From contig CAIWCD010000012.1 in NCBI GenBank assembly GCA_903911145.1, positions 1 through 33,525 on the forward strand: 33,525 nucleotides of DNA. The letters are read 5' to 3'. The DNA is from an uncultured delta proteobacterium. Its GTDB lineage: Bacteria; Myxococcota; Myxococcia; Myxococcales; 40CM-4-68-19. The position numbers and the translations under genes are program-made. Below, piece after piece: positions 12,123 through 33,525 of the stretch. The stretch's first letter is position 1. Each line of letters begins with the position of its first letter. The notes beneath the pieces are model-generated. The model saw only the letters and a program-made list of their open reading frames with translations, did no database searches and was not told the origin of the DNA.

Positions 12123-13189
12123 GCCGCCAGCAGGGAGTGCTCGCGCGCTGGGCAGAGTTCCTTCCCGTCACCGCAAAGACGCCCCGCCTCACGCTGGGCG
12201 AGGGCGACACGCCGCTCGTTTCCGCTCCTGCGCTCGCGCGCGCGATCGGCTGCGACGAGCTGTGGCTCAAGTGCGAAGGGATGAACCCGACCGGCTCGTT
12301 CAAGGATCGCGGAATGGTCGTCGCGATGGCCAAGGCGATCGAGGCCGGCGCGCGCGTCGCGGTCTGCGCCTCGACGGGAAACACCTCTGCGTCTGCCGCG
12401 GCCTACTGCGCAGCTGCTGGCATCGGCTGCCGCGTCGTCGTTCCCGAGGGAAAAGTCGCTCTCGGGAAACTCGCGCAGGCGATCGTCCACGGCGCGCGCA
12501 TCGTCGTGCTGCGCGGGAACTTCGATGCCGCGCTGCAGGCCGTTCGCGTGCTCGCGGAGCGAACACCGATCGCGCTCGTCAACAGCGTCAATCCGTTCCG
12601 GCTCGAAGGGCAGAAGACGGCAGCGTTCGAGGTGATCGAGGCGCTCGGCCGCGTCCCGCATGGGCTGGCGCTTCCGGTCGGCAATGCGGGCAACATCTCC
12701 GCGTATTGGAAAGGCTTCACCGAACACGCCGCGCGCGAGGAGCAGGCCGGCCGGGCGCGCACTACACCTGTCATCTATGGCGTGCAAGCCGCGGGGGCCG
12801 CGCCGTTCCTGAGCGGCGCGCCTGTCGCGCATCCGGAGACGATCGCGACCGCCATCCGCATCGGCAACCCCGCGAGCTGGGATCTGGCGATCCGCGCGCA
12901 GCGTGAGAGCGGCGGACTCTTCGCGAGCGCCACCGACGCGGAGATCCTCTCGGCCCAGCGTCGTCTCGCAAGCGAGGCGGGAGTCTTCTGCGAGCCCGCG
13001 AGTGCCGCGCCCATCGCCGGGTTGCTCAAGCTGGCCGCGCAGACGCCGGGACGTTTTCGCGGACAGACCCTCGTCGCCGTGCTCACTGGACATGGACTCA
13101 AGGATCCGCAGACCGCGATCGCAGACGCTCCGCCGCTGCCCGAGCCGATCGAGAATGACTTCGCCGCGCTCGAGAAGGCGCTGGCATGA
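12119..13189 (+). CDS. thrC: Threonine synthase (356 aa)
   Basis: PLP enzyme that converts O-phosphohomoserine to threonine. The PLP lysine is Lys62 in MNPTGSFKDRGM. The phosphate-binding loop is at about 190 (PVGNAGNISAYWKGF). Other family blocks are STGNTSASAAAYCAAAG and the final VAVLTGHGLKDPQTA. It is the short (~350 aa) class found in actinobacteria and many proteobacteria, without the long N-terminal extension of E. coli ThrC. It starts with GTG, overlapping the hom stop by four bases, and ends with ATGA overlapping thrB, so the three enzymes are probably made in fixed ratio. Confidence 0.97.
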   Translation: MSRQQGVLARWAEFLPVTAKTPRLTLGEGDTPLVSAPALARAIGCDELWLKCEGMNPTGSFKDRGMVVAMAKAIEAGARVAVCASTGNTSASAAAYCAAAGIGCRVVVPEGKVALGKLAQAIVHGARIVVLRGNFDAALQAVRVLAERTPIALVNSVNPFRLEGQKTAAFEVIEALGRVPHGLALPVGNAGNISAYWKGFTEHAAREEQAGRARTTPVIYGVQAAGAAPFLSGAPVAHPETIATAIRIGNPASWDLAIRAQRESGGLFASATDAEILSAQRRLASEAGVFCEPASAAPIAGLLKLAAQTPGRFRGQTLVAVLTGHGLKDPQTAIADAPPLPEPIENDFAALEKALA

Positions 13190-14160
13190 GCACGCCCTTC
13201 ACCATCATCGCGCCCTGCTCCACGTCAAACCTTGGCGCCGGCTTCGACGCGCTGGGAGTCGCACTGGGCGGGCCTCGGCTCGCGATCCGTTGCACGCCAG
13301 GCGGTCCCGATCTGCGCATCGTTGCGCTCTCGGGAGAGGGAGCAAGCAGCCTCTCGCGCGGCAGCGACAATCGAATCCTCGTCGCCGCGCGTGCCGCGGC
13401 CGAGCGCATCGGCGTCCCGTTCGAGTCGCTGCGCGGAGAGCTCTCGATCGACAACACGATTCCTCTCGCGCGCGGACTCGGCTCGTCCGCAGCGGCGGCC
13501 GTCGGCGGCGCGATCCTCGCGGAGGCGCTCGCAGCGCGGCTCGGCGGAGATGCTTTGCACTCAAACGATCTCGCGGGCGCAAGCGCAACGGCGTTCAACG
13601 ACACGCGCGTGCTCGCGACGGCTCTCGCACTCGAGGGCCATCCCGACAACGTCATCGCGTCTCTTCGCGGCGGCGCGCAGGTCGCTGTCCTCGACGCGCA
13701 GGGCGTCGTGCGCGCCTGCCCTCTGAAGATTGCAGCTCCACTGCGCGCGGCGATCTTCATTCCCGATCAGGAATTGCGCACCAGCGAAGCGCGCGCAGTG
13801 ATTCCGCGCACCGTGCCTCTCTCCGACGCCGTCTTCAATCTCGGGCGGGCCGCGCTCTTCGTAGCCGCGCTGGGCGCGGGCGAGCGCGATCTGCTCGGCG
13901 AGGCGATGACCGATCGTCTGCACCAGCCGGCCCGCTCGACGCTGATGCCGTGGCTGCCCCATCTCATCGAGGCGGCGCGGAGCGCGGGGGCCTACGGCGC
14001 AGCGCTCTCCGGCGCAGGCACGACCGTCTTCGCGCTCGTGCCACCCGAGGCATCCGAGCGCGTCGTCGAAGCCCTTCGCGCACGCGCCGCAGAGTTGTCG
14101 GTTCCCGGCCGCGCGTTGAGCGTCGATGCGTTCGCTGCCGGCGCACGCATCGAGCAATGA
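13186..14160 (+). CDS. thrB: Homoserine kinase (324 aa), carries an in-frame repeat
   Basis: GHMP-family kinase that phosphorylates homoserine for ThrC. The motifs are STSNLGAGFDALG (12-24), the ATP loop PLARGLGSSAAAA (93-105), EGHPDNV (150-156) and LSGAGTTVFAL near the C-terminus. Between the ATP loop and EGHPDNV the chain carries DALHSNDLAGASATAFND (122-139), which looks like extra residues compared with the family. Its first seven residues are encoded by a 23-base repeat also found in gluQ. Rare-looking codons TTG and TCA fall inside it. The gene overlaps thrC and the following small gene by four bases each. Confidence 0.96.
   Translation: MSTPFTIIAPCSTSNLGAGFDALGVALGGPRLAIRCTPGGPDLRIVALSGEGASSLSRGSDNRILVAARAAAERIGVPFESLRGELSIDNTIPLARGLGSSAAAAVGGAILAEALAARLGGDALHSNDLAGASATAFNDTRVLATALALEGHPDNVIASLRGGAQVAVLDAQGVVRACPLKIAAPLRAAIFIPDQELRTSEARAVIPRTVPLSDAVFNLGRAALFVAALGAGERDLLGEAMTDRLHQPARSTLMPWLPHLIEAARSAGAYGAALSGAGTTVFALVPPEASERVVEALRARAAELSVPGRALSVDAFAAGARIEQ
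13548..13570 (+). repeat. 23-base coding repeat, copy 1 (in thrB)
   Basis: Identical over 23 bases to 17755-17777 in gluQ, with core GATGCTTTGCACTCAAACG. It is read in the same frame in both genes as D-A-L-H-S-N-D. The sequence is an imperfect palindrome (GAT..TTTG, loop CACT, CAAA..ATC). It sits in the segment of thrB between the ATP loop and EGHPDNV. It resembles in behaviour the palindromic elements that insert inside Rickettsia genes, though the sequence is different. Confidence 0.8.
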
Positions 14161-14345
14161 CCGGGCGCAAGCCACCAGAACGCAATCCTGATCGCGCGCT
14201 CTTCGCGCTGCTCTTCTTCATCGCGCTCGCGATCGGCTGCTGGTTTCTCGTCGATCGACTGCGGCGCGACGCGAAGATGCAGGACTGCGTGATGGCCGGT
14301 CATCGCAACTGCGATCCCGACAATCCACCGATCGACGATCGCTAG
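14157..14345 (+). CDS. Small single-pass membrane protein (62 aa)
   Basis: Translated from the ATG at 14157, which overlaps the thrB stop in ATGA, it gives MTGRKPPERNPDR, a transmembrane segment at about 14-32 (ALFALLFFIALAIGCWFLV), then a short tail with the motif MQDCVMAGHRNCDP. I recall small proteins with a similar one-TM layout and a QDCxMxGxxNC-like end in alphaproteobacteria, with no known function. The two tail cysteines (12 apart including the motif) could bind metal or form a disulfide. The tight coupling to thrB suggests joint expression rather than a role in threonine synthesis. Confidence 0.7.
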   Translation: MTGRKPPERNPDRALFALLFFIALAIGCWFLVDRLRRDAKMQDCVMAGHRNCDPDNPPIDDR

Positions 14346-14376
14346 AACCCGCGCTGGGAGCGGACGAGCGGTGTTT

Positions 14377-15144
14377 CTAATCCGGCAAGCGCTCGACGAG
14401 CACGGCCGTGCTGTTGTCGTCTCCGCCGCGATCGTTGGCGAGCTGGATCAGCGCCGTCGCGATCGTCTCGAGCGTCGTGTCCGTCGACAGCGCCTCGCAG
14501 ATCTCTTCGTTCTCGACGAGATTCGAGAGGCCGTCCGAGCAGAGCAGGAAGCGGTCGCCCGGCTTGGTCTCCACCCCCATCACGTCGACGAGCACGTCCT
14601 CTTCGAAGCCGACCGAGCGGGTGATGATGTTCTTCAATCGGCTGACGCGCGCCTCGTCGGGCGTGAGCAGCCCCGCGCGCACCTGCTCATTGACGAGCGA
14701 ATGATCTTCGCTGAGCTGCAGCACGCCGCCCTCGCGCACGAGATACGCGCGGCTGTCGCCGACGTGGCCGACGAGAGCGTGGGCCCCGTTGATCACGAGG
14801 CAGATGCAGGTGGTGCCCATTCCGTGCAGTTCGGGGTTGAGCTTGCTGGTGCGGAAGACCGCGGCGCACGCGCCCTCGACAGCTTCGCGCACTGCTCCCG
14901 CCATCGGCGAGTCCGCGAGGTTGGCCTTGCTCGCGTAGGGACTGTCGTTGCGCAGCCGCGCGGAGAGCAGCTCGCGCTCGACCGTCTGCACGGCGAGGCG
15001 GCTCGCAGTCTCGCCACCGGCGTGCCCGCCCATGCCGTCACAGACAACGTAGAGACCGAGCTCCTCGTTGATGAGGAAGCTGTCTTCGTTGTGCTCACGC
15101 TTCATGCCGACGTCGGTCAGTGCGACGCTGCGATAGTTGGCCAC
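14377..15144 (-). CDS. PP2C-family Ser/Thr protein phosphatase (255 aa)
   Basis: Metal-dependent phosphatase of the PrpC/Stp type, which reverses Hanks-type kinase phosphorylation. Motifs appear in family order: TDVGMKREHNEDSF, VCDGMGGHAGGE with metal-binding Asp, GMGTTCICLVI, GHVGDSRAYLV, EDHSLVNEQVRAG, LLCSDGLSNLV and GGDDNSTAVLV. All metal-binding Asp positions are present. I chose the GTG at 15144 (VANYRSVALTDVG) because the family begins there; the frame extends upstream to 15255 with unconserved Arg-rich sequence. Length is typical. It ends 32 bases from the convergent 62-aa gene. No partner kinase lies in the window. A structured repeat (15286-15414) separates it from recN. Confidence 0.93.
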   Translation of the reverse strand: MANYRSVALTDVGMKREHNEDSFLINEELGLYVVCDGMGGHAGGETASRLAVQTVERELLSARLRNDSPYASKANLADSPMAGAVREAVEGACAAVFRTSKLNPELHGMGTTCICLVINGAHALVGHVGDSRAYLVREGGVLQLSEDHSLVNEQVRAGLLTPDEARVSRLKNIITRSVGFEEDVLVDVMGVETKPGDRFLLCSDGLSNLVENEEICEALSTDTTLETIATALIQLANDRGGDDNSTAVLVERLPD

Positions 15145-15285
15145 GAGCCCTTGTGCCTCAGCGACGCGCTGCGAGCAAGCTCGTCGACGAGGGAGAGAGC
15201 AGGAGGCCTGCGCTTGGCCAGGTACGGGGCGGCGCAGCAAGACCGCTCGCTGCATGTGTCGTGACTCTTCTTGGTCCGGTCATAG

Positions 15286-15414
15286 CCGCGAGGCAGTCGA
15301 TGGCTGCTGCCGCGCGCAGTTCAGGAGCGGCCGCACGGCTCTCCGCAGTGAGCACATTCTGCGTCAGCCGCGGATGCATGTTTGAGCACGGCAGCAGCCA
15401 TCGATGCCTCGCGG
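15286..15414 (+). repeat. Structured intergenic repeat, copy A (129 bp)
   Basis: The outer arms 15286-15312 and 15389-15414 are complementary along 26 pairs with a single one-base bulge. Inside lie the conserved blocks GCGCAGTTCAGGAGCGGCC, a CTCCGCAG..GAGCAC segment, and CAGCCGCGGATGCATG followed by TTTGAGCACGGC. The same blocks occur in copies B and C, but the arm sequence (GGCTGCTGCCG/CGGCAGCAGCC near the core) is specific to this copy. The right arm ends five bases from the recN stop codon, with the core antisense to recN. Confidence 0.8.
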
Positions 15415-15419
15415 GGCCC

Positions 15420-17192
15420 TCACGACGCGCGGCGCGCTCGCTTCGGGCTCGTGTCGAGCGCAGCCTTCTCGAGCAACTCTCGCGCGTGGATGAGCGAGGC
15501 GTCGGTGACGTGGCCGCTGAGGAGGCGGGCGAGCTCCTGTGTGCGCACGTCGCCTTCGACGGCGGTGACGCGCGTGCGGGTGCGGCCGCGGGCGACCTCT
15601 TTTTCGACGGTCTGGTGGCGGCGCGCGAAGGCGGCGATCTGCGGCAGATGCGTGATGCAGATGATCTGCCGATCGCGCGCGACCGCGCACAGAGCGCGTC
15701 CGACCGCATCCGCGACGACGCCGCCGATGCCCGCGTCGACCTCGTCGAAGAGATAGGAGCCGACCGGATCGCTCTCGACGAGGACCCGCTTGACCGCGAG
15801 CAGCACGCGCGAGAGTTCACCGCCCGAGGCGATGCGCGCGAGCGGTTTCTGCTCTTCACCGAGGTTGGGCGAGAGCATCAGCTCGGCGCTCTCCAGACCG
15901 CGCGCACCAAGGGTCTGCGAGTTTTTCTCGACGGCGCCCGGCGGAAGATTGAGCGGCGAGCCGTCCTCGCGCAGCGCAATTCCACCCTCGGTGATCGGCG
16001 AGAAGCGAACCGAGAGTTCGCTGCGCGCCATGCCCAGACTTGCCAACTCGGCGGCGACGGCCCTGGTGAACGCGGCGGCCGCGCTCCTGCGCTTCAGAGA
16101 AAGCTCGCGCGCGAGCTGCAACGCGATAACGGCGCGCTTCTGCACCTCGACTTCGCGACGCAAAAGCTCGCCGCCGTGATCGTCGATCGAGAGCAGCTCC
16201 TGGCTCATCGCCTCGCGCCGGGCAAGCGCGGCGGAGAGAGTGCCGCCATGCTTGCGCGTGAGTTTGCGCAGGAGTTCGAGCCGCTCGTCGATCGCCTCGA
16301 GACGCTGCGGGTCGCCCCCAGCGCGGGCCGCGTAGCGCGCCAGCTCGCGCGCGGCCTCGTCAATCTCTGCCGCCGCGCCGCGCATCGACGTGGCCAGTGG
16401 CGCGAGCGTCGGATCGATCAGCGCCAGCTCCTCGAGGCGCTTCGCCGCGCGCGTCACCAGCTCGAGCGCCGCGCCCTCGGACGCGCTCAGAAAACCCTCC
16501 GCGTCCTCGGCGCCCGCGCGCAGCTTCTCTGCCGAGGCGAGCCGCTTGCGCTCCTGCGCGAGCTCGTCATCCTCGCCCGCCTTCGGATCGATCTGCGTGA
16601 GCTCCTCGAGTTGCCAGCGCAGCCACTCAGCACGCTCTGCTCGCGCGCTCTCGTCGCTGCCGAGCTGCGTGCGCGCCTTCTCGGCCTCGGCAAGGCGGGA
16701 GAAGGCCTCGCTGTAGGCCGCGCGCTCGGGAGCGAGCTGCGCGTGCGCGTCGATCAGCTCGAGGTGCACGCCCGCATCGAGCAGCCCGACGTGCTCGTGC
16801 TGGCCGCTGATGTCGAGCAGTCCGCGCGTCGCGGCCGCGAGCTGCGACGCGGTCGCGAGCTGGCCGTTGACGAAGGCGCGGCTGCGCCCTTCACGCTGCA
16901 CGGTGCGGCGCACGAGAAGCTCAGATCCTGCCGCGGGCAGGCCCAGCGCGGTCAGGCGCGCGTCGCTCGCCGCCGGATCGCGAGGAAGGAACAGCGCCTC
17001 GACCTCCGCTTCTTCTGCGCCCGTGCGCACGCAGTCGGCCTGCGCCCGTCCGCCAAGAGAGAGGTGGAGCGCGTCGACGAGGATGCTCTTGCCCGCGCCG
17101 GTCTCGCCCGTGAGCACGTTGAAGCCGGGCTCGAAGCGGATCTCCAGCTCGTCGATGATGGCGAAATTCTTCACGCGAAGTAGGTCAAGCAT
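15420..17192 (-). CDS. recN: DNA repair protein RecN (590 aa)
   Basis: SMC-like ATPase acting early in recombinational repair of double-strand breaks. Walker A is GETGAGKS at 29-36, with a long coiled-coil region between about 150 and 400. The C-terminal ATPase half has the signature and Walker B in RVLLAVKRVL and YLFDEVDAGIGG, followed by ITHLPQIAAFA. It is somewhat longer than usual (about 550-560 aa), partly through a Lys/Arg-rich tail. A TAGGGT box lies nine bases before the ATG at 17192 with no Shine-Dalgarno, so the transcript may be leaderless. Divergent from gluQ across 176 bases. No LexA-type box was recognised. Confidence 0.96.
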   Translation of the reverse strand: MLDLLRVKNFAIIDELEIRFEPGFNVLTGETGAGKSILVDALHLSLGGRAQADCVRTGAEEAEVEALFLPRDPAASDARLTALGLPAAGSELLVRRTVQREGRSRAFVNGQLATASQLAAATRGLLDISGQHEHVGLLDAGVHLELIDAHAQLAPERAAYSEAFSRLAEAEKARTQLGSDESARAERAEWLRWQLEELTQIDPKAGEDDELAQERKRLASAEKLRAGAEDAEGFLSASEGAALELVTRAAKRLEELALIDPTLAPLATSMRGAAAEIDEAARELARYAARAGGDPQRLEAIDERLELLRKLTRKHGGTLSAALARREAMSQELLSIDDHGGELLRREVEVQKRAVIALQLARELSLKRRSAAAAFTRAVAAELASLGMARSELSVRFSPITEGGIALREDGSPLNLPPGAVEKNSQTLGARGLESAELMLSPNLGEEQKPLARIASGGELSRVLLAVKRVLVESDPVGSYLFDEVDAGIGGVVADAVGRALCAVARDRQIICITHLPQIAAFARRHQTVEKEVARGRTRTRVTAVEGDVRTQELARLLSGHVTDASLIHARELLEKAALDTSPKRARRAS

Positions 17193-17201
17193 GGGGAGCG
17201 G

Positions 17202-17207
17202 ACCCTA
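17202..17207 (-). promoter_or_regulatory. Putative -10 box of recN
   Basis: TAGGGT read leftward from 17207, nine bases before the recN ATG. It fits the TAnnnT pattern seen at hom, gluQ and the DUF1460 gene. There is no Shine-Dalgarno between box and start. Confidence 0.3.
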
Positions 17208-17353
17208 GCAGGAAGGCCCGACACCTGCACAACCGTTCATGCCCGCATCATCGCGACCGCGCCCAGCCTGCTCTGGATCGTTGGGGGCGCGAGGCGATCG
17301 GAGTCGTCGCGGCGAAGGGCGTGCCCGACTCGCGCGAAGCTCTCTGGCTCACG

Positions 17354-17359
17354 TAGAGT
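17354..17359 (+). promoter_or_regulatory. Putative -10 box of gluQ
   Basis: TAGAGT at 17354-17359, nine bases before the gluQ ATG with no Shine-Dalgarno. It is the same arrangement as at hom and recN. Confidence 0.3.
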
Positions 17360-17368
17360 GCGCGGCGC

Positions 17369-18388
17369 ATGTCTGTCAGCGGCAGGACCATCGAGCGCGG
17401 ACGATTCGCGCCCAGCCCCACCGGCGAGCTGCATCTGGGAAACGCGCGCACTGCGCTCCTGGCCTGGCTCTCCGCGCGCAGCCGAGGCGCTCGCTTCACG
17501 ATGCGCATCGAAGATCTCGATCGGCCGCGCTGCAGGCCGGGGCTCGCCGAGAAACAGCTTGAGGAGCTCGCGTGGCTCGGGCTCGACTGGGACGAGGGTC
17601 CAGAGAGCGCGCCGCCGCACACAGAGGCCGGTCCGCATGGCCCGTATCGCCAATCGCAGCGCGGCCCGCTCTACGATCGCGCGATTGAGCAGCTGCGCGA
17701 GGGCGGCCACGTCTACGACTGCTTCTGCTCGCGCGCGCAGATCCGGGCGGCCGCAGATGCTTTGCACTCAAACGATCGCGCCGACGCCACGAGCGAGGCG
17801 AGCGCGCCGCACGGTCCGCAGGACGACGGCCCGCGCTATCCGGGCACCTGCGCGAACCTCACCGCTGCCGAGGTCGCGACGCGGCGGAAATCGCGCGCGC
17901 CCGCGCTGCGCCTGCGCGTGCCGCACGAACCGATTTCGTTCGACGATGCGATCGCGGGGCCGCAGCAGTTCGATCCCGCGACGGAAGTGGGCGACTTCAT
18001 CCTTCGCCGCGCAGATGGCGTGCACGCCTACCAGCTTGCGGTGGTCGTCGATGACGCCGCGATGGAGATCACCGAGGTCGTGCGGGGCGCGGACCTCCTC
18101 GCATCGACGGCGCGGCAGATGCTCCTCTATCGAATGCTCGGTCTGCGCATCCCGTCGTGGGCGCATGTTCCGCTGCTCTTCGGACCGCCCGGAATCGATG
18201 GACAGCCGCAGCGGCTCTCCAAGCGGGCTGGCGCGGAGACGCTCTCGACGATGCGTGCGCGCGGAGACGATCCGCGCACCATCGTCGCGCAGTTGGCACG
18301 CTCCTCCAGCCTCGTCGGAGACGAGATCGCAGCCTGCACGCCCGCTGAGCTGCTCCCCCGCTTTGCGTTGGCGCGCCTCTCTCGCTGA
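17369..18388 (+). CDS. gluQ: Glutamyl-Q tRNA(Asp) synthetase (339 aa), carries an in-frame repeat
   Basis: Truncated GluRS paralogue (GluQRS/YadB) that attaches glutamate to queuosine in the tRNA-Asp anticodon. The HIGH-like motif is in APSPTGELHLGNAR (14-27), the KMSKS-like motif is RLSKRAG near 275, and no anticodon-binding domain follows. The zinc ligands CxC at 118/120 and YxxxC at 157/161 are present. The spacer between them is 37 residues against about 12 in the E. coli protein. This longer spacer holds DALHSNDRADATSEA (130-144), whose first seven residues come from a 23-base repeat identical to one in thrB. The remaining spacer (SAPHGPQDDGPRYPGTC) looks like the normal family sequence. 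Divergent from recN. Confidence 0.94.
   Translation: MSVSGRTIERGRFAPSPTGELHLGNARTALLAWLSARSRGARFTMRIEDLDRPRCRPGLAEKQLEELAWLGLDWDEGPESAPPHTEAGPHGPYRQSQRGPLYDRAIEQLREGGHVYDCFCSRAQIRAAADALHSNDRADATSEASAPHGPQDDGPRYPGTCANLTAAEVATRRKSRAPALRLRVPHEPISFDDAIAGPQQFDPATEVGDFILRRADGVHAYQLAVVVDDAAMEITEVVRGADLLASTARQMLLYRMLGLRIPSWAHVPLLFGPPGIDGQPQRLSKRAGAETLSTMRARGDDPRTIVAQLARSSSLVGDEIAACTPAELLPRFALARLSR
17755..17777 (+). repeat. 23-base coding repeat, copy 2 (in gluQ)
   Basis: Identical to 13548-13570 in thrB and read in the same frame as D-A-L-H-S-N-D. It falls in the zinc loop of GluQ between the CxC and YxxxC ligands, a place where length change can be tolerated. The flanks differ from those in thrB apart from a CGCG shortly after. 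Confidence 0.8.
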
Positions 18389-18713: not shown

Positions 18714-18805
18714 GGTGCGCAGCAGGGCCGCTGTGGGTGCGGCCGTGCTCAAACATGCAGGTGCGCAGCAGGACCGCTGTGGGTGCGGCCGTGCTCAAAC
18801 ATGCA
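18714..18805. repeat. 46-bp tandem duplication within copy B
   Basis: Units 18714-18759 and 18760-18805 are identical except for one base (GGGCC versus GGACC). Each unit holds one outer arm and the GTGCTCAAACATGCA block. The second unit (GGACC) matches the distant arm exactly at the differing base; the first does not. Confidence 0.85.
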
Positions 18806-18894
18806 TCCGCGGCTGACGCAGAAATTGCTCCATTCGGAGTTGTGTAGGGCCGCTCCTGAACTGCGCGCGGCCGCTCCCACAGCGGTCCTGCTGC
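18714..18894 (-). repeat. Structured intergenic repeat, copy B (181 bp, with duplicated end)
   Basis: Read on the minus strand it has the same core as copies A and C: GCGCAGTTCAGGAGCGGCC, a CTCCG..GGAG segment, then TTCTGCGTCAGCCGCGGATG and CATGTTTGAGCACGGC. The arms 18765-18791 and 18868-18894 pair at 26 of 27 positions, yet have a sequence (GCAGCAGGACCGCTGTGGG) unlike the arms of A and C. The end next to infA is tandemly duplicated. The core is antisense to infA, as the other copies are to their neighbours. Confidence 0.8.
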
Positions 18895-19046: not shown

Positions 19047-19172
19047 CCGCGGGGCAGCCGATGGTGCGGGCCGCGCGCAGTTCAGGAGCGGCCGCAACCA
19101 TCTCCGCAGCGAGCACGGACGCCAGCCGCGGATGCATGTTTGAGCACGGCCCGCACCATCGGTGACCCGCGG
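19047..19172 (+). repeat. Structured intergenic repeat, copy C (126 bp)
   Basis: The arms 19047-19073 and 19147-19172 pair at 25 positions with one mismatch and a one-base bulge at the same place as in copy A. The core is nearly identical to copy A (GCGCAGTTCAGGAGCGGCC, then AGCCGCGGATGCATGTTTGA). The arm near the core (GGTGCGGGCCG/CGGCCCGCACC) is specific to this copy. It ends five bases from the stop codon of the GAF gene, with the core antisense to that gene. Confidence 0.8.
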
Positions 19173-19177
19173 CGACC

Positions 19178-20686
19178 CTACTCCTCGTGTGCCTCGAGGT
19201 AGATCGCTGCCTGGTGCGCGAGGTAGTGGAGGATCGACAGCTCCGACGCCGAGAAGCTCGTCGAGCCGTTCTTGTTGATCAGCTGGATCGCGCCGAGCGT
19301 GCGGTTGTCGTGGATGACCGGCGTCGTGATCATGCTCTTGGTGTCATAGCCGAGCCGCTGCGAGATCTCTTTGTAGAAGCGCTTGTCGCGCTGCACGTCG
19401 CTGATGGCGACGCCGACGCCTTCCTGCGCGCAGAAGCCGACGAGGCCCTTGCCCATCGGGACGCGCAGCTTGAGCGCAACGAGCTCGCCCGCCTTCGGAC
19501 CGCGCACGGCCGCGAAGCCGAGATCGCGCCGGTTGAGGTCCGCGACGTAGAACGAGCCCGACTCCGAGGGAATCTTCTCCATCGCCAGATCGAGCAGGAA
19601 GTAGAGCGCGTCGGCCTGCTCCTTGCCGAACATCTCGGGCGTGCGCTCGAACAGCTCGGAGAGAACGTCCTCGAGCTGGCCCGCCTCGGCGGCATTCGGC
19701 GTGCGCGAGAGCCGACCAATCACGGCAGGCGGCGGCGAGCGCTGGTTGTCGACCTCGACGATCTTGATCGGCGGCGGCGCGCGCAGGGCCTCGCTCATCG
19801 CCTGATCGGCAGTCGCCTTCTCGGCCGTGGCGCGCTCGGCAATCGCCCTCTCGGCAGCGGCCTTCTCCGCGGCAATCTTCTCGGCAGCGATCTTTTCCTT
19901 CGCGGCCTTCTCTGCAGCCTTCTTCTCGGCGGCCGCCTTCTCGGCAGCAGCGCGCGCGTTCGCGGCCCGCTCCGCCGCGGCCTTCTTCTGCGCGCCCTTT
20001 TCCGAGGCTGCGCGATCCGCTGCGGCCTTCTCCGCGGCGGCCTTCTCCTCCATCGCCTTCGCGTCCGCGCGCGATCCCGCGTCCTTCGCGCCGCGCGAAT
20101 CAGCGGCGGTCTTGTCGACGAACGTCTTCGCCATCTTCGCTGCAGCTTCCGCGGCAGCCTGATCGGCAGCGGCCTGCTCCGCTGCAGCCTTCTCCTGCGC
20201 AGCCAGCTCGGCAGCCTCGGCTTCCGCTGCGGCCATCTCGGCAGCCCGACGCTCGGCGGCGGCCTTCTCTGCTGCCGCCTTTTCCGCGGAGGCCCGCTCA
20301 GCCGCCGCGCGCGCGAGCGCTGCCTTCTCCTCGTCCGCGCGCTTGGACGCAACCACGGCCATCTCGCGCAGCGCAGCGTCGTTCGTCGGGGGCGGATCGC
20401 TCGGCGCCGCCATCCAGCTCGGCGTCGGCAACACCACGCCCACACCCGGATTCGAAATCTCGGGGATCTGCGCGATGCGGAAGACCCGGTTGTTGCGCGG
20501 GTCGGTGACGTGGATCGACTCGTCGTCCTGGATGTCGCAGAGAACATTCTGCGGGAGCCCGGACGTGTCGCCGATCTTCTTCAGACCCACCTTGAGCGCG
20601 GCCATCCACGTATCGGCCGTCACCCGCAGGGTCATGTTCATCTCTTCCGCAGTCGCTGCCGGAATGAACACTTCGAACCGCGCCAT
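19178..20686 (-). CDS. GAF-domain protein with long Ala/Glu-rich coiled coil (502 aa)
   Basis: There are three regions. Residues 1-78 form a small alpha/beta domain of unknown type (FEVFIPAATAEEMNMTL...VTDPRNNRVFRIAQIP). Residues ~105-300 are almost only Ala, Glu, Lys, Arg and Gln in repeats such as AAEKAAAEKAAAE, predicting a continuous helix or coiled coil of about 190 residues. Residues ~335-500 are a GAF domain (DALYFLLDLAMEKIPSESGSF, then MGKGLVGFCAQEG and TLGAIQLINKNG). GAF domains bind small molecules or tetrapyrroles; the ligand here is unknown. There is no output domain, signal peptide or membrane segment. The ATG abuts the hydrolase stop (TAGATG), with GGGAGG just upstream, so it is last in a coupled operon. 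Confidence 0.88.
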   Translation of the reverse strand: MARFEVFIPAATAEEMNMTLRVTADTWMAALKVGLKKIGDTSGLPQNVLCDIQDDESIHVTDPRNNRVFRIAQIPEISNPGVGVVLPTPSWMAAPSDPPPTNDAALREMAVVASKRADEEKAALARAAAERASAEKAAAEKAAAERRAAEMAAAEAEAAELAAQEKAAAEQAAADQAAAEAAAKMAKTFVDKTAADSRGAKDAGSRADAKAMEEKAAAEKAAADRAASEKGAQKKAAAERAANARAAAEKAAAEKKAAEKAAKEKIAAEKIAAEKAAAERAIAERATAEKATADQAMSEALRAPPPIKIVEVDNQRSPPPAVIGRLSRTPNAAEAGQLEDVLSELFERTPEMFGKEQADALYFLLDLAMEKIPSESGSFYVADLNRRDLGFAAVRGPKAGELVALKLRVPMGKGLVGFCAQEGVGVAISDVQRDKRFYKEISQRLGYDTKSMITTPVIHDNRTLGAIQLINKNGSTSFSASELSILHYLAHQAAIYLEAHEE

Positions 20687-21616: not shown

Positions 21617-22770
21617 TTCTTCTCCACCATGCGGAACTCGACGCGACGATTGGACGCCTTGCCCGCGCGGGTCACATTGCTCGCGATCGGCCGCGTCGGC
21701 CCGTAGCCCTCGGACACGATCTGCTGCGGATCGACTCCCTGCTTGATCAGATATTCGCGCACCGACTCCGCGCGCGCGCTCGAGAGCTTCATGTTGTCGT
21801 CGATCGTCCCGACGTTGTCGGTGTGCCCCTCGACGCGCATTTTCACCAGCGGCGCGTCCTTGATCGCCTGCGCCACTTCACGCAGGAGCTCGAAGCTGTC
21901 CGGCAGAATTCGTGACTTGTTGGTCGCAAAATGGACCTGCTGCTTGAGCTCGATTCGATCGCGCCGGACGATGATCAGCGACTGCTTGCGAGGGCAGCCT
22001 TCGTTGTCCTTCGGGCCCGGCTCATCGGGGCACTTGTCGTCCTTGTCGGGCACGCCATCGCCATCGCGATCAGCCCAGGGGCAGCCACCGTTCTCGGCGG
22101 GACCAGCGACGAGCGGGCAGCGATCGAGCCGATCGATGAGACCATCGCCATCGGTGTCGCGATCGGGGCAGCCCTGGTTCTCCTTGGGGCCGAACTCGGT
22201 CGGGCACTTGTCGTCCTTGTCGGGGATGCCATCGCCGTCGGTGTCGGGCCACGGGCAGCCGAAGTTCTCCTTCGGGCCGGGCACATCGGGGCAGCGGTCG
22301 AGCGTGTCGGGAACGCCGTCGCCGTCCTTGTCCGTCTGCAGCGGGCAGCCGCGATTCTCCTTCGGGCCCGGGACGTCGGGGCAGAGATCGTCGATGTCCG
22401 GCACGCCGTCGCCGTCGGTGTCCTTGAGCGCCACCGGCGCGGGCGCGGGCTTCTCACGAATGAGCACCTGCACCGGCGCGCAATCTTTGGAGAGCACGAC
22501 CGCCTGCTTGGCCGCCTTCTGCGCGACGTCGAGATGCTCCTCGGCGCGGAAGCTGTCGCCCTGCTCGAGCTCGATTTCGGTAAAGCGCAGATTCGCCTCG
22601 GCCGTCGCGAGCTCGCGGGGAGCGCACTGGAGTGCGTTCGACTTGCGCGCCGCCGAGATGTCTTCGCGCACCACCCGCCCACGCCCGCGATCGGCGAGCT
22701 GCGCGCCAGTCATGCAGGAGAGGCTCGCAAGCAGCGCGATGAGGCCAGGAGCGGTCACGCGCGATTTCAC
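21613..22770 (-). CDS. OmpA-family outer-membrane lipoprotein with five TSP3 repeats (385 aa)
   Basis: An N-terminal hydrophobic segment (IALLASLSC, residues 11-19) ends in a Cys that fits an imperfect lipobox. A helical region follows (about 40-95). Residues ~117-260 hold five thrombospondin type 3 repeats of the form DxDGDGxPDxxDxCP...GCP, which bind calcium through their Asp ladder. Residues ~262-385 are the OmpA C-terminal domain (VHFATNKSRI, GHTDNVG, LSSARAESVREYL, NRRVEF), which holds peptidoglycan. GTG start at 22770 overlaps the upstream stop (GTGA). It likely links outer membrane and cell wall. Pairing with a DUF4398-type lipoprotein upstream is a common layout. Confidence 0.93.
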   Translation of the reverse strand: MKSRVTAPGLIALLASLSCMTGAQLADRGRGRVVREDISAARKSNALQCAPRELATAEANLRFTEIELEQGDSFRAEEHLDVAQKAAKQAVVLSKDCAPVQVLIREKPAPAPVALKDTDGDGVPDIDDLCPDVPGPKENRGCPLQTDKDGDGVPDTLDRCPDVPGPKENFGCPWPDTDGDGIPDKDDKCPTEFGPKENQGCPDRDTDGDGLIDRLDRCPLVAGPAENGGCPWADRDGDGVPDKDDKCPDEPGPKDNEGCPRKQSLIIVRRDRIELKQQVHFATNKSRILPDSFELLREVAQAIKDAPLVKMRVEGHTDNVGTIDDNMKLSSARAESVREYLIKQGVDPQQIVSEGYGPTRPIASNVTRAGKASNRRVEFRMVEKK

Positions 22771-24191: not shown

Positions 24192-26744
24192 TCAGTGCGT
24201 CCAGCTCGACGTCTCGGTCCAGCCGTCGATCTGCACCTGCCCGGCACTTCCCGGCGTGCCCGATTGCGGGGCGGTGCCGCCCGAGACGGAGATACCGGCC
24301 GGAGCTGGCACGGTCACCGACGAGAGGCCGTTCGTGCTGAAGATCCGGACGGTGCCGCCGGAGCCACCGCTGCCAGTGGCTCCGGTCGCCGCGGCGCCGA
24401 GCGCGACCAGATCGCCGATGTCGTTCACTGTCGTGCCCGTCAGCGAGATCGTGCTCGCGTTGCCTCCCTGCAAGATGCCGGGGCCGCCGCTGACGTCGAT
24501 GCTGTTCGTGCTGGTCACCGCGCCGTTGTCCGAGCCCATCGAGACCGGCCTGCCGATTCCACCGGGACCGCTCGCGCTCGCGCCTCCCCGCGCGATGATC
24601 GTCCCGCTGTTGGTCACGCCGGTCAGTCCGTAGAAGCGAACACCGGCCGGAACCAGCGTGTTCAAAGTCGCGACGAGCCGGGTCGATGCTCCGCCCGTGA
24701 TGTCGATGTTGCCGGCGTTCACCACCTGCTCGAACGAATCGCCAGCAAAGAAGTAGGCCTGCTGCGTGGAGAGGCTCACGCTCCCGCTCGTCCCGCCACT
24801 GCCCGACCCGCCTGTTCCGCCGCGCGCGATCAGATCGGCATAGTTGATGACGCTACCGCCCGGGCCGTAGCCTGTTCCGTTCACGACGGCCGCACGGTTC
24901 TGGCAGTCCACACAGCCCACGGTGGGATTGTAGTAGGTATTGATCATCTGAATCGGCGCCCCGCTGCCGCCGTTCTGCAGGCCGTCTCCGCCGCTCGCGC
25001 TGAGCTGCGAATAGCCGTAGAGGATCACCTCCTGGCCGTTGGGCTGGTAGTTGGTATCGAACCAGATCGCGACGTTGCCGGCGCCGCCACCACCGGTGCC
25101 ACCGAATCCGCCTGAGCTGTTGAGATTGCCGGAGACCATCACGTCGCCGCCGGGAACGAGTCGGTTGTTTCCCGTCACGGCGGACCGCTGGCTTCCCGAC
25201 ATCTCGATGTAGATCAGGCCGCCGCTGCCGCCCGCGCCGTTCGCCGACGAGCCGCCGCGCGTCGTGATGGCGGCGTTGTTCACCACCGTGCCGGCGTAAG
25301 CATAGACGTCGATCTCCCTGCCGTTGCCCGCCGCGCAGCCCGTCGTGCAGCTCGCGGCGACGTCGCCGCCTTTGGATGTCAGCGTGCCGGAGTTGCGCAC
25401 CGAGGCCGCCGCCTTGTCACCTCCATAGAGGGCAATTCCACCAGCGCTGCCTCCCTGGGTCATGCCCGTTCCGCCGCTCGCGTCGATGGGGCCGGAGTTG
25501 TTCAGATCGAGGTACGGGTAGAACAACACCTGCCCGCCGTTGCCGCCGCTCCCACTCGAGCCGTTGCCGCCGGTGGTCTGGATGATGCCCGTGTTGAACA
25601 TCGAAGCCGGACTTCCGTTGTAGCCATTCATGCGGATCTGGCCGCCGTTGCCGCCGCTGCTCCCGTTGCCGCCAGTCGCAGAGATCAGCCCCTGGTTCCA
25701 GAGGGGAGAGGCGACGATGTCGATCCCTCCGCTGCTGGTCCCGTTGGCGCTCGAGGCGTCGATGCCATTGTTGAGAACCGCCGAGGTGGCATCGCCGAAA
25801 TAGGAGTCGGCGAGGATCAACAGCGCGACCTGCACCCCGGCGTTGGCGAGCGCAATCGTGCCCGCGTTCAGGATCGGGCCCTTGACCCTGAAATTGACCG
25901 GGTTCGACGGGAGGGGGATGAGCGTGACCGTCACGCCGGGCGCGATCGAGAGGCCAGTCACCTCCGTCGAGCCGCCGTCCGTCGGGTTGTCGAGCAGCGC
26001 GACGATGTCGTTCTTGTCGAGGTAGAGCGTGCCCGCGCCTGCGTCGGTGCTCAACGGGTCGAGCGATTCGATCGTGGTGTTCGCGGTGATGTTCGCCGGC
26101 GTCGCGCCGAGGTCGACCGCAGGCTTCGCCGGAAAGGTGAAGCTCGGGTCGGCCGCGCCGGTCTTGAAGACCTTGACGTGCCCGCCGATGGTGCCGTTCC
26201 AGAATCCGATCTGGATCTCGCCGCCGTTTCCGCCGCTGCCGGCGTCGCTGTTGCCGCCGAGCGCGCTGATGGTCGAGTCGCCGGGCGAGCCCACCGGCGC
26301 AATGATCGAGCCGACATTCTCCGCGCTGCCGCTGCAGACGTAGCTGGTGCTGGTGATTTCGCCGGGCTGGAGAATTCCGTCGTTCGCCGTGCCGCCGTGG
26401 GCGCCGTTGTCGAGGCCGCTGTCGATCCGCTGCCCACCGCCGGCGCAGTTCGCATCGCCGACCTCCAGCGTGGTCGTCTTCACGAGCGTGGTGAAACCAG
26501 CGGCGCCGTTGGTCCCGTTGGCGCCATTGCCACCGTCGACGCCGTTCGCGCCGTTGGTCCCGTTGGTTCCATTTGAGCCGTTGCAGACGATCTGCGGCGC
26601 ACCGCTATCGACGACGATCGAGACGCCGCCCGTCGGGCACTGCGCCCCTGGCGCGATCGCCGTCATGGTCACGGTCGACTTGCCGCAGGAGAGCGCGAGA
26701 AACACCAGCGACAAAGAGGCTGCGCGAAGAAACGTTCGAGTCAT
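24192..26744 (-). CDS. Gly/Asn-rich repetitive surface lipoprotein, paralogue 1 (850 aa)
   Basis: Signal-type N-terminus MTRTFLRAASLSLVFLALSC with Cys20 likely lipidated. Residues 55-84 are collagen-like Gly-X-Y triplets, mostly GTN and GAN. Residues ~84-140 (TTLVKTTTLEVGDANC to TSTSYVCSG) resemble the domain that I recall as DUF7151 beside collagen-like stretches in myxobacterial proteins. From ~155 to the end the chain is repeats of about 30-40 residues of the form N-x-G-x-I-x-x-x-GG followed by Gly-rich turns, probably a beta-solenoid. It ends GWTETSSWTH. Few cysteines lie in the repeats (ASCTTGC, CVDC). GGGAG five bases before the ATG at 26744 supports the start. Last of three tandem paralogues. 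An adhesin or matrix role is inferred. Confidence 0.85.
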   Translation of the reverse strand: MTRTFLRAASLSLVFLALSCGKSTVTMTAIAPGAQCPTGGVSIVVDSGAPQIVCNGSNGTNGTNGANGVDGGNGANGTNGAAGFTTLVKTTTLEVGDANCAGGGQRIDSGLDNGAHGGTANDGILQPGEITSTSYVCSGSAENVGSIIAPVGSPGDSTISALGGNSDAGSGGNGGEIQIGFWNGTIGGHVKVFKTGAADPSFTFPAKPAVDLGATPANITANTTIESLDPLSTDAGAGTLYLDKNDIVALLDNPTDGGSTEVTGLSIAPGVTVTLIPLPSNPVNFRVKGPILNAGTIALANAGVQVALLILADSYFGDATSAVLNNGIDASSANGTSSGGIDIVASPLWNQGLISATGGNGSSGGNGGQIRMNGYNGSPASMFNTGIIQTTGGNGSSGSGGNGGQVLFYPYLDLNNSGPIDASGGTGMTQGGSAGGIALYGGDKAAASVRNSGTLTSKGGDVAASCTTGCAAGNGREIDVYAYAGTVVNNAAITTRGGSSANGAGGSGGLIYIEMSGSQRSAVTGNNRLVPGGDVMVSGNLNSSGGFGGTGGGGAGNVAIWFDTNYQPNGQEVILYGYSQLSASGGDGLQNGGSGAPIQMINTYYNPTVGCVDCQNRAAVVNGTGYGPGGSVINYADLIARGGTGGSGSGGTSGSVSLSTQQAYFFAGDSFEQVVNAGNIDITGGASTRLVATLNTLVPAGVRFYGLTGVTNSGTIIARGGASASGPGGIGRPVSMGSDNGAVTSTNSIDVSGGPGILQGGNASTISLTGTTVNDIGDLVALGAAATGATGSGGSGGTVRIFSTNGLSSVTVPAPAGISVSGGTAPQSGTPGSAGQVQIDGWTETSSWTH

Positions 26745-26821
26745 TGGACTCCCAAACAGAGCTGAGGCGAAAAGGGTTGGAGAGGATCGGTCCGTCGAGT
26801 GCGGTGAGCGCAGCCTCGAGG

Positions 26822-29410
26822 TCAGTGCGTCCAGCTCGACGTCAGGTTCCAGCCGTCGATGGTCACCGTCCCCACTTTGCCGGGCGTGCCCGCTTGCGCA
26901 GCCGCACCGCCCGCGACCGAAACGCCTCCGGGCGCCGCGACAGAGATGGACGACGAGCCCGCGGAACTCCCGATGACGATCGTACCTCCGGCGCCGCCTG
27001 AGCCCCCGACGGAAGCGCTCGCTGCGCCACCCTTCGCCACCAGGTCTGCGGAGACGGTGACTGTCGTTCCTTGAAGATCGAGCTGGGCAGAGCCGCCTCC
27101 CTGTGTGACGCCGTCGCCGCCACTCACGTCGATGGCGGCCGAGCTGATCACTTCGCCGTTGTCCGAGGTGAGCCTGGAACTGTTGGCGTCCGTGCCCCCG
27201 CTCGCAGCGAGGCCGACCCCACCTCTCGCGGTCAAAGGGCCGCTGTTGGTGACGCCGGTCAAACCGTAGAATTGGAAGGAGCCGCCGCTGCCGCCGCTCT
27301 GGCCGTCACCGCCACCGACATCCACGCGGCCCGTGTTGCGCACCTGCTCGAACGCGTCACCGGGGAAGTAGTAGCTCGACTGCGTAATCAGCTGAACCTG
27401 TCCGCCGCTGCCGCCGGAGCCAGCGCCGCTTGCGCCACCGCGCGAGACGAGATCGACGTCGTTGATCACGCTGCCGCCCGGTCCGTACGTCACGCTCTGC
27501 GCCTGCGCCTTGCACACGTTGCAGCCGTCCGAGCTGTAATAGGTGTTCTCGAGCTGAATCTCACCGCCGGATCCGCCTCCGATCGCCCCCGAACCACCGC
27601 TCGCGTCGATGCGCGCATATCCGTAGAGGATGATCTCCTGGCCGTTGGGCTGCACGTTCGGATCGAGATAGACGCCGAGCAGGCCCGCATTCCCGCCGCG
27701 CGTGGCCCCCGTGCCGCCGGAGCTGTCGACAGAGCCCGAAAGGACCAGATCGCCAGCCGGACTGAGCGGCACTCTCCCGGCGACGACCGCTGCGTTGCTC
27801 GCCCCCAGAGTGACGATGATCTGGCCGCCGGAGCCGCCCGCGCCGTTCGCCGACGAACCGCCACGCGACGTGAGGGCCGCGTTGTTCACCAGCGTTCCGT
27901 TGTTGGCCGCGAGGATCACCCCGCCACCGTTGCCGCCGATGCAGCTGACGACCTCGCCGAAGACGCAGCTTGCGTCGACGCTGCCGCCGATGGTGTGGAT
28001 CGTGCCGGAGTTGCGAGTCGAGCCGATGCCGCCCTCGCGGTCTCCCGCGTAGATCCCGACTTCGCCGCCGTTCCCGCCCACCGTCGTCCCCGAGCCGCCG
28101 ACAGCCGAGAGCGGTCCTGAGTTGTTCGCATCGAGCCCAACTTCGAAGACAACCGAGCCCGCGTTGCCGCCGCTGCCGAACGTGCCAGCACCGCCATTGG
28201 CCTCAACGATGCCCGTGTTGAACAGAGATGTTGGCGTCCCGCCGTTTGCGAGCAGATCGATCTTTCCGCCGTTGCCGCCGTTGCGCCCGGTGCCACCGTT
28301 GGCCGAGATGAGTCCCCGGTTCCAGATTGGCGAAGCACTGATAGAGATCCCGCCGCTGCTGGTTCCGTCGGCAACGCTCCCACTATTTCGCTGGCTCCTG
28401 GCATTGGTGAGAACTCCGTCGAGGCCGTTGTTGAGCACCTGCGACGTGCTGTCGCCGAAATAACCGCCGCTGCTCTTGACCACCAACAAGAGGCGGGCAC
28501 CGACGTTGCCGAGGACGATGGAGCCCGAGTTGAAGATCGAGCCGTTGACCCCGATCACGTAGGAGCTCCCCACTGACCCCGGGACGAGCGTGAGCGTCGC
28601 GCCCGCGCTGATCGAGAGGCTGGTCGCCTCGATCGAGCCGCCGTCGACCGCATCGTCGAGCATCGCAAGCGTGTTGTTGCTGTCGATGTAGAGCGTGCCC
28701 ACGCCGGCGTCGGTGTTCGACGGATCGAGCGGACCCACTGTGGTGTCCACCGCGATGTGTACAGGCGACGCGCCAGGATCGAACGTGGGCGCCGTCGGGA
28801 AGGCGAAGCTCGGATCGGCCGCACCGGTCTTGAAGACCTTCACGTGGCCGCCGAACGATCCGTTCCACATCTGAACGTAGACGCCATCGCTGTTGCCGCC
28901 GAAGCCGGCGTCGGCGCTGCCGCCCACCGCAGTGATCGTCGAATCTCCCGTCGCCCCCGAAGGCGCTGCGATCGAGCCGACAACGTCTCCGCTGCCATTG
29001 CAGACGTAGCTGGTGCTGGTGATCTCGCCGGCCTGGAGAATTCCGTCGTTCGCGGTGCCGCCGTGGGCGCCGTTGTCGAGGCCGCTGTCGATCTGCTGCC
29101 CGCCGCTCGCGCAGTTCGCGTCACCGACAGCAAGCATGGTCGTGCGCACGAGCGTGGTGAATCCGCTGCTGCCGTTGGTACCGTTCGTGCCGTTGCCTCC
29201 ATCGACGCCGTTGGTGCCATTGGTGCCGTTGGTGGCGTTCGACCCGTTGCAGATGATTTGCGGCGTGCCGTTGTCGATGCTGATCGACGTGCCGCCGGTC
29301 GGGCACTGCGCGCCGGGCGCGATCGGCATCACCGTCACAGTCGACTTGCCGCAGGAGATCGCGAGCACGCAGAGCAACGGCGGGACTGCACGGAGAGTGA
29401 ATCGGGTCAT
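26822..29410 (-). CDS. Gly/Asn-rich repetitive surface lipoprotein, paralogue 2 (862 aa)
   Basis: Same plan as its neighbours: signal segment (MTRFTLRAVPPLLCVLAISC), GKSTVT motif, collagen-like triplets (GTN repeats), the TTLVRTTMLAVGDANC-to-SYVCNG domain, then the Gly-rich solenoid ending GWNLTSSWTH. I chose the ATG at 29410, with a GGTGGA ribosome site about eight bases upstream, over an in-frame ATG at 29431. The cysteine pair near residue 640 is CNVC, matching CVDC and CHEC in the other two. DNA identity with the paralogues is very high in the stretch coding for GITSTSYVC-type sequence (28990-29090), which hints at recent duplication or gene conversion. The stop is 77 bases before paralogue 1. 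Confidence 0.85.
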   Translation of the reverse strand: MTRFTLRAVPPLLCVLAISCGKSTVTVMPIAPGAQCPTGGTSISIDNGTPQIICNGSNATNGTNGTNGVDGGNGTNGTNGSSGFTTLVRTTMLAVGDANCASGGQQIDSGLDNGAHGGTANDGILQAGEITSTSYVCNGSGDVVGSIAAPSGATGDSTITAVGGSADAGFGGNSDGVYVQMWNGSFGGHVKVFKTGAADPSFAFPTAPTFDPGASPVHIAVDTTVGPLDPSNTDAGVGTLYIDSNNTLAMLDDAVDGGSIEATSLSISAGATLTLVPGSVGSSYVIGVNGSIFNSGSIVLGNVGARLLLVVKSSGGYFGDSTSQVLNNGLDGVLTNARSQRNSGSVADGTSSGGISISASPIWNRGLISANGGTGRNGGNGGKIDLLANGGTPTSLFNTGIVEANGGAGTFGSGGNAGSVVFEVGLDANNSGPLSAVGGSGTTVGGNGGEVGIYAGDREGGIGSTRNSGTIHTIGGSVDASCVFGEVVSCIGGNGGGVILAANNGTLVNNAALTSRGGSSANGAGGSGGQIIVTLGASNAAVVAGRVPLSPAGDLVLSGSVDSSGGTGATRGGNAGLLGVYLDPNVQPNGQEIILYGYARIDASGGSGAIGGGSGGEIQLENTYYSSDGCNVCKAQAQSVTYGPGGSVINDVDLVSRGGASGAGSGGSGGQVQLITQSSYYFPGDAFEQVRNTGRVDVGGGDGQSGGSGGSFQFYGLTGVTNSGPLTARGGVGLAASGGTDANSSRLTSDNGEVISSAAIDVSGGDGVTQGGGSAQLDLQGTTVTVSADLVAKGGAASASVGGSGGAGGTIVIGSSAGSSSISVAAPGGVSVAGGAAAQAGTPGKVGTVTIDGWNLTSSWTH

Positions 29411-29513
29411 TGAATTTCCACCAGGCTTCAAGAAAGGGCGCGGCGCGCAATCAGTGAATGCGCAGCGCTGTCACGGAGAGATTCCAGTCGCGCAGAGAAC
29501 GAGCAGTTCACGC

Positions 29514-33193: not shown

Positions 33194-33525
33194 ATGGGCG
33201 AATCCAGCAGCGACTCTTCTGCGTCGGAGTCGAGCGCATCGAGCTCTGATCAGTCCTCCTCAAGCAGCGGCGCGTCGAGTTCGAGCAGCGACTCCTCGAG
33301 CAGCGACTCCTCGAGCAGCGGCGCGTCGAGTTCGAGCAGCGACTCCTCGAGCAGCGGCGCATCGAGTTCGAGCAGCGACTCCTCGAGCAGCGGCGCATCG
33401 AGTTCGAGCAGCGACTCCTCGAGCGGCGGCGCATCGAGTTCGAGCAGCGACTCCTCGAGCAGCGGCGCGTCGAGTTCGAGCAGCGACTCCTCAGGCAGCG
33501 GCGCGTCGAGTTCGAGCAGCGACTC
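33194..33525 (+). CDS. Ser/Asp-rich low-complexity protein, 3' end beyond the window
   Basis: The frame from the ATG at 33194 stays open for 110 codons to the window edge. After MGESSSDSSASESSASSSDQ it becomes repeats of GASSSSSDSSSS. Only Ser, Asp, Gly and Ala occur past residue 25, which gives a very acidic, extended chain. GC-rich sequence with GGGGA before the ATG may act as ribosome site. It begins 103 bases after the DUF1460 gene. Such SD-type repeats serve as flexible stalks in some surface proteins (family analogy only). No signal peptide is visible at the N-terminus. The rest of the protein, and so its type, is unknown. Confidence 0.6.
   Translation, partial: MGESSSDSSASESSASSSDQSSSSSGASSSSSDSSSSDSSSSGASSSSSDSSSSGASSSSSDSSSSGASSSSSDSSSGGASSSSSDSSSSGASSSSSDSSGSGASSSSSD
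33269..33525 (+). repeat. 36-base tandem repeat, about 7 units
   Basis: In-frame units start at 33269, 33320, 33356, 33392, 33428, 33464 and 33500 and encode GASSSSSDSSSS. The first unit carries an extra 15 bases coding DSSSS. Single changes (AGC to GGC, GCG to GCA, TCG to TCA) mark the units. The window ends inside the last one. Confidence 0.9.

Follow-up and report, generated by a model that had tools for sequence, protein, structure and literature searches.

A 23-base repeat carried by the genes thrB and gluQ of an uncultured delta proteobacterium may well be one site of a genome-wide recognition motif in duplex DNA, a pseudo-palindrome of 20-24 bp; we consider it about an even call that this motif belongs to a dimeric duplex-DNA-binding protein. 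The repeat lies on contig CAIWCD010000012.1 (assembly GCA_903911145.1), of which positions 1 to 33,525 were analysed and are referred to below as the window. The proposed motif has roughly the form A-R-A-T-SS-TTKG-NRYN-CMAA-SS-A-T-Y-T and occurs singly or arrayed at 15- or 21-bp steps. A sequence-specific protein, dimeric or pseudo-dimeric, would bind its two halves, and copies would be favoured at the level of DNA. Some would arise in place through base changes in existing coding DNA and others in extra sequence of permissive loops and gene ends, making the peptide encoded by the repeat a by-product.

The same 23-mer, AGATGCTTTGCACTCAAACGATC, is found at 13548-13570 and 17755-17777, both on the + strand. 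Each copy is read in the frame of its gene and encodes D-A-L-H-S-N-D (codons 13549-13569 in thrB, 17756-17776 in gluQ), exactly as the original prediction had it; the 24-nt unit of the thrB copy reaches 13571 (AGATGCTTTGCACTCAAACGATCT). The host genes are thrB (homoserine kinase, 13186-14160, + strand, Pfam GHMP kinase domains) and gluQ (glutamyl-Q tRNA(Asp) synthetase type, 17369-18388, + strand, Pfam tRNA-synt_1c). Both identities are upheld by the closest solved structures: homoserine kinases for the former and, for the latter, glutamyl-tRNA synthetases, among them the glutamyl-Q tRNA(Asp) synthetase 1nzj. Two matches to the 23-mer (≤3 mismatches) occur in the window against a mean of 0.00 in 100 shuffled windows, which bears out the view that chance sharing is very unlikely. 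The copies were also expected to lie in extra sequence, and this is the case: ThrB has a net 17 residues more than 9/9 orthologues and GluQ 13 to 18 more than 16/16, with the motif inside the extra residues of each. In thrB the stretch without counterpart in orthologues comprises about 14 codons (13549-13590, + strand) with three more extra codons just upstream, and in gluQ 13 codons (17753-17791, + strand) are absent from the same-genus orthologue, the limits of both stretches being alignment-dependent. The CxC-to-YxxxC spacer of GluQ had been called long at 37 residues; it is indeed longer than the 23 of the same-genus orthologue, but by count it has 36. The motif codons stand out as rarer than their surroundings, as had been noticed (each copy has a geometric-mean synonymous usage of 0.208, against 0.400 and 0.495 in the flanks of the thrB and gluQ copies, respectively).

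A genome count of the 23-mer, the check named beforehand, revealed a dispersed family reaching well beyond this pair. G000, the own genome (5.30 Mb in 53 contigs; completeness 98.96%, contamination 0.24%), contains 33 matches at ≤3 mismatches (20 forward, 13 reverse), against 0 for a backward-read control pattern. For the 20-bp dyad ATVVTTKGNRYNCMAABBAT, which is degenerate, 169 exact sites were counted, the control again giving 0. When over-represented 12-mers were listed for 1.23 Mb of this genome, the list was headed by TTTGCACTCAAA, the inner 12-mer of the repeat (22 occurrences, 0.007 expected), and TTGGCACTCAAA (23, 0.012 expected); TTGGTGTTCAAA (12, 0.028 expected) and TTGGTATGCAAA (9, 0.004 expected) were also found. 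Flank profiles of 74 clusters delimit the unit as A-R-A-T-SS-[TTKG-N4-CMAA]-SS-A-T-Y-T, outside of which the sequence is background. The imperfect palindrome first seen in two genes is thus a multi-copy, dispersed near-palindrome.

In a 1.63 Mb sample, sites with 0, 1, 2 and 3 mismatches numbered 75, 67, 32 and 63. Symmetric permuted patterns gave means of 0, 0.1, 2.9 and 41 and largest counts of 0, 1, 8 and 98, so that the excess is clear to two mismatches only and insecure at three. This sample is non-random, consisting of contigs known to hold matches and of pieces of C39, C44 and C46 picked around matches. Density was therefore taken from long runs of five contigs only (C13, C24, C48, C2 and C18), and amounts to 5.5 clusters per 100 kb, or about one per 18 kb. 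Extrapolated to the whole genome, there are probably about 290 clusters and a few hundred copies. The core rule, TTKG-N4-CMAA, overlooks variants such as TTTGCATAGCAA and the counts are lower bounds. TTTGCATAGCAA, with the arm GCAA, appears to be one more form of the motif (5 occurrences, 0.001 expected, in C24 and part of C2).

The 140 cores of the 1.63 Mb sample form 103 clusters (73 single, 23 double and 7 triple). Linkers between tandem cores (n = 37) are 3 nt in 22 cases and 9 nt in 12, with lengths of 8, 10 and 15 nt occurring once each; as 34/37 are 3 or 9 nt, the usual array step is 15 or 21 bp. The commonest centre is AGTG (56/140 cores). The two halves of a site do not covary. Their outer dinucleotides are equal in 12 of the 73 single-core clusters, against 13.7 expected (p = 0.87), and the T/G arm position differs between halves in 81/140 cores, an excess of unlike pairs (p = 0.017). 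A folded stem would require the opposite, and a folded hairpin was rejected as the recurring form. Separately, another dispersed repeat, about 100 nt long and containing CAGTTCAGGAGCGGC and TGCATGTTTGAGCACGG, lies at 15301-15400, 18717-18879 and 19069-19179 of the window, with inverted copies around gluQ. One string from it, TTTGAGCACGG, occurs 10 times in the 1.63 Mb, four of them in the window. This repeat looks like a miniature inverted-repeat transposable element and holds the half-site string TTTGAGCA.

Clusters are enriched outside genes and near their 3′ ends. Using gene calls from a simple model of our own, which are approximate, 101 clusters were placed. Genes (1,459 kb) hold 49 of them, though they make up ~89% of the sequence. 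Of the others, 29 fall between co-directional genes (107 kb), 22 between convergent genes (23 kb) and one between divergent genes (41 kb). Among these 52 intergenic clusters, 41 are closer to the 3′ end of a gene and 11 to a 5′ end. In the 74-cluster sample, 31 clusters lie inside called genes without a stop, and all three frames are used (14, 10 and 7 clusters). A further 22 overlap the end of a called gene, and in several of these the stop codon of the open reading frame (ORF) falls inside the motif.

The motif family is nearly peculiar to this genome. Among 59 relatives searched with the 23-mer, a single 3-mismatch match was found in one. The pattern ATVVTTTGAGTGCMAABBAT (≤1 mismatch) has 127 sites in the own genome and one each in 10 of 146 other members of the class. 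The degenerate pattern was searched in 20 relatives and found in G010 (8 sites), G011 (4), G006 (3), G012 (3), G004 (2), G007 (2), G009 (1) and G002 (1, where the control also gave 1); the other twelve had 0. Many of the copies in relatives have the centre AGCA or AGCT, which occur in 3 and 0 of the 140 own cores, and these centres are a possible dialect. No family comparable to this one was seen among the top over-represented 10- and 12-mers in 400 kb of G004. A narrow form, GATSSTTTGAGTGCMAASSATC, had no match in genome-contig or viral-contig collections, from which records near the own genome were possibly excluded. A literature search gave no recognisable description of the motif, and the three papers that contain one of the literal strings concern a mushroom assay, zebrafish and duckweed.

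In-gene sites were compared with orthologues from the same genus, family and order (identity ≥45%, 12 residues required on each side). Twenty three sites were entered and 21 scored, GltB and locus L012 having no row past the filter. A single same-genus alignment of GltB, separate from the 21, shows little length change. PurK had no alignment spanning the motif, and PriA (L003) and L021, without alignments, were not entered. Most host names were checked in Pfam (PurM as AIR synthase domains), while EpmA, TrpE, GltB and PurK are provisional names. Judged from these alignments, the comparison is bimodal, with in-place sites and extra-residue sites. The median length change is within 2 residues of zero at 8/21 sites (amidase, AstB, amidohydrolase, LpxI, C46b_12406, PurM, cytosine/purine permease and a DUF4340 protein). 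At least 5 extra residues are found at 10/21 (+5 to +30; C44_16627, HemF, PGM, C48_77, RibD, C39a_8170, GluQ, LpxB, ThrB and C48_194079), compared with 5/75 control tiles from the same alignments (Fisher, p = 5e-5); 63 of the 75 tiles show zero length change. MetG (+4), TrpE (+2.5) and EpmA (-8) fall between or outside the classes. The alignments are not all independent, since neighbouring loci overlap (the 6 rows of LpxI and the 6 of LpxB represent 3 genomes each, the 7 of RibD 6 genomes), and the median classes are unchanged by this; C44_16627 and C48_194079 have one orthologue each.

A closer inspection of individual sites refines both classes. RibD is classed among the extra-residue sites, and two of its orthologues, one from the same genus, are of about equal length (+1, -1). 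HemF is 6 to 8 residues longer than its kin, yet places 195 residues on 195 Pfam profile positions; the extra length is relative to kin only, and the relatives may have lost residues. By the same measure AstB (146 on 146) and LpxI (98 on 98) fit their profiles, and LpxB is still longer (126 on 110). At several in-place sites, family residues are kept under the motif: 7/8 in two of three LpxI genomes (3/8 in the third), 7-8/9 in PurM and 4-6/8 in AstB, with the permease weaker (2-3/8). SecA aligns ungapped to solved SecA, reading FRLYSKL for FRLYEKL at a site that has one flank mismatch. DeoB is likewise ungapped against solved relatives, its own motif residues not being conserved. Both were chosen for their conserved look and serve as examples, not as a measure of frequency. 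In 40 of 41 in-gene cores the motif uses rarer codons than the flanking sequence does (geometric-mean synonymous usage 0.184 vs 0.373). The in-place sites and rare codons indicate that what recurs is a DNA string and not a peptide.

The original prediction took the repeat for a mobile protein-coding element tolerated in loops. Part of this stands, for the repeat is multi-copy, dispersed, in frame and, in thrB and gluQ, within sequence absent from relatives. However, the family is not mainly coding (49/101 clusters) and is not always an insertion (8/21 sites in place), and the extra lengths are not constant. In a broader form, the copies would belong to a mobile micro-element akin to Rickettsia palindromic elements, repetitive extragenic palindromes (REPs) or cyanobacterial small dispersed repeats, which inserts wherever loops and gene ends tolerate it and decays afterwards, its arrays being nested or dimeric insertions. 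We consider this rather unlikely. It would account for the extra residues at 10/21 in-gene sites, and the co-directional and convergent placement, the proximity to 3′ ends and the stop codons within the motif match what is described for REPs (PMC3733652). However, the in-place sites cannot have been made by a mobile insert, SecA being an ungapped example, the extra lengths (+5 to +30 residues) show no constant unit, and the HemF loop is not extra relative to its Pfam family. Moreover, no signal of target-site duplication was seen beside the unit, the best diagonals (z up to 3.9) lying away from the unit edges, and the stems do not covary. The in-place sites and the missing target-site duplications rule out simple mobile insertion as the general mechanism. 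A system of REPs and their associated tyrosine transposases (RAYTs) was rejected too. The REP transposase family Y1_Tnp (PF01797) has 0 matches in the own genome and 1 to 21 in 12 of the 14 relatives searched, and neither a GTAG- nor a CGTC-type REP end tag is present in the flank profile of the 74 clusters. As REPs are described (PMC3733652), the motif resembles them as a short near-palindrome in many copies, sometimes intragenic and otherwise between co-directional or convergent genes (29 and 22 of 52 intergenic clusters, with 1 divergent), and differs from them in its lack of end tag, stem covariation and PF01797 match and in its in-place sites. Rickettsia palindromic elements, which are much longer than the motif, are likewise in-frame repeats within unrelated genes (here 31/74 clusters). 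The motif is unlike them in its excess, relative to genome share, in non-coding DNA and at gene ends. Insertion relative to orthologues, which marks those elements, applies here to 10/21 sites, not to 8/21, with the remaining 3 unclear, and so fails as a general rule.

Placement also speaks against a large regulon, under a MarR-family regulator for instance, whose ordinary operators or terminators the sites would be; we hold this to be very improbable. The lead comes from the sister genus: in 5/5 genomes that have one particular MarR-family gene (Pfam MarR), the beginning of that gene is overlapped by a motif-like dyad. Four of the five dyads match TTKG-N4-CMAA, and the one in G007 has a single arm mismatch. 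In those four the arm changes are symmetric (TTGG/CCAA or TTTG/CAAA), with no conservation of the centre. Against this, it was the motif search that first brought up four of the five cases, and neither of the two own relatives of the gene (46% and 49% identity) has the motif in the 300 bases upstream. A MarR protein as the cognate binder is suggestive for the sister genus only. With 1/52 intergenic clusters divergent, 11/52 nearer a 5′ end, 41/52 nearer a 3′ end and 49/101 clusters intragenic, promoter operators were ruled out; the 3′-end bias could fit termination. A further possibility is a self-DNA tag spread by biased uptake and recombination, like the uptake sequences of Neisseriaceae and Pasteurellaceae, which we think unlikely, if worth keeping in view. 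Neisserial DNA uptake sequences (DUS) are described as showing the same split into near-matches or gaps in relatives, and the same permissive placement (PMC2397512). The AGCA and AGCT centres in the few copies of relatives recall DUS dialects (PMC3630211), and rare codons written over conserved genes suggest a drive that bears a cost. However, one cluster per about 18 kb is far sparser than the roughly one DUS per 1.1-1.5 kb described (PMC2397512), and the motif is a long degenerate dyad in phased direct arrays. DUS and uptake signal sequences, as described (PMC2397512, PMC3630211), thus share with the motif a lineage-specific excess, dialects in relatives, permissive regions and near-matches or gaps, whereas DUS are 10-12 bases long and far denser than this 20-24 bp dyad, which is a candidate tag only.

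A recognition motif for a dimeric DNA-binding protein would bring the two classes of site together: if the motif is favoured as DNA, its spread in permissive sequence accounts for loop and in-place sites alike. In favour of such a motif count its sharp excess here and near-absence from relatives, the in-place sites, the rare codons, the half-sites that vary without pairing, the fixed array steps and the avoidance of divergent spacers. As to its role, the copies are most likely, tentative as that assignment is, the sites on the chromosome of a protein of segregation or nucleoid type, and a self-DNA tag linked to uptake or recombination comes next, as a less probable option. The former is favoured by the low density, the dyad form and the phasing; the latter by the sites written across conserved codons and by the bimodal alignments. 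MatP/matS, Noc and SlmA sites are known chromosome-organising palindromic sites, and a dispersed duplex dyad that includes genes, as such sites do, is what was found here. For archaeal SegB, 46 motif sites are described, with 83.7% of enriched sites intragenic (PMC12284271). SegB-type sites are alike in being a dispersed palindromic duplex motif, often intragenic and sometimes with several together (PMC12284271). They are unlike the present motif in that the latter is longer and more degenerate, with ~290 clusters by extrapolation, phased arrays, no resolved domain pattern and a putative cognate protein. HIP1 of cyanobacteria is also a palindrome over-represented genome-wide in coding DNA (PMC4390886), but is the 8-bp GCGATCGC, whereas the motif is 20-24 bp, degenerate and much rarer.

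Several observations weigh against a recognition motif of this kind. The extra residues at 10/21 in-gene sites are not predicted by plain in-place change alone. Perfect palindromes are found at 2 centres where 30 would be expected, which is odd for a symmetric dimer. Cluster spacing fits an exponential, and so looks random, on three contigs, and no domain pattern was resolved on the unordered contigs, the densest run (C18, 11 clusters in 38 kb) coming close to the 5% limit of the scan. A cognate protein was not found, the MarR lead being confined to the sister genus. Finally, the chromosome-organising site sets described are smaller, as with the 46 sites of SegB (PMC12284271).

A short motif has thus probably entered one genome a few hundred times and its relatives hardly at all, and some of its copies replace conserved codons in essential enzymes. 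The force behind it, whatever its nature, would act on DNA and against protein and codon constraint. It is conceivable, if doubtful, that a self-DNA tag or a drive at the DNA level has evolved here independently, as a third case beyond Neisseriaceae and Pasteurellaceae, with a long pseudo-palindrome, phased arrays and few-copy variants in the sister genus, and strong enough to overwrite codons in SecA, PurM and LpxI. The motif points toward a so far unrecognised site-specific DNA-binding protein and offers a testable case for motif spread by point change, recombination or insertion. It also cautions that in-frame loop repeats are not necessarily mobile coding elements.

Other repeats were encountered along the way. 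Three consecutive paralogous ORFs of ~2.5 kb occupy 24195-32114 of the window on the - strand and have many common repeat blocks at 2.6-2.7 kb spacing. A repeat of 87-90 nt coding length is present in five copies at 21991-22423, and a 36-nt tandem repeat at 33209-33511 reaches near the contig end. Elsewhere in the genome, an 18-nt tandem array of CACTGGATTAACCGGCAG units lies at about 55,000-55,350 of contig C13 (L066), and the 10-mer CTGGGCGCGG, which is outside this motif, occurs 129 times in the 1.23 Mb sample against 16.9 expected.

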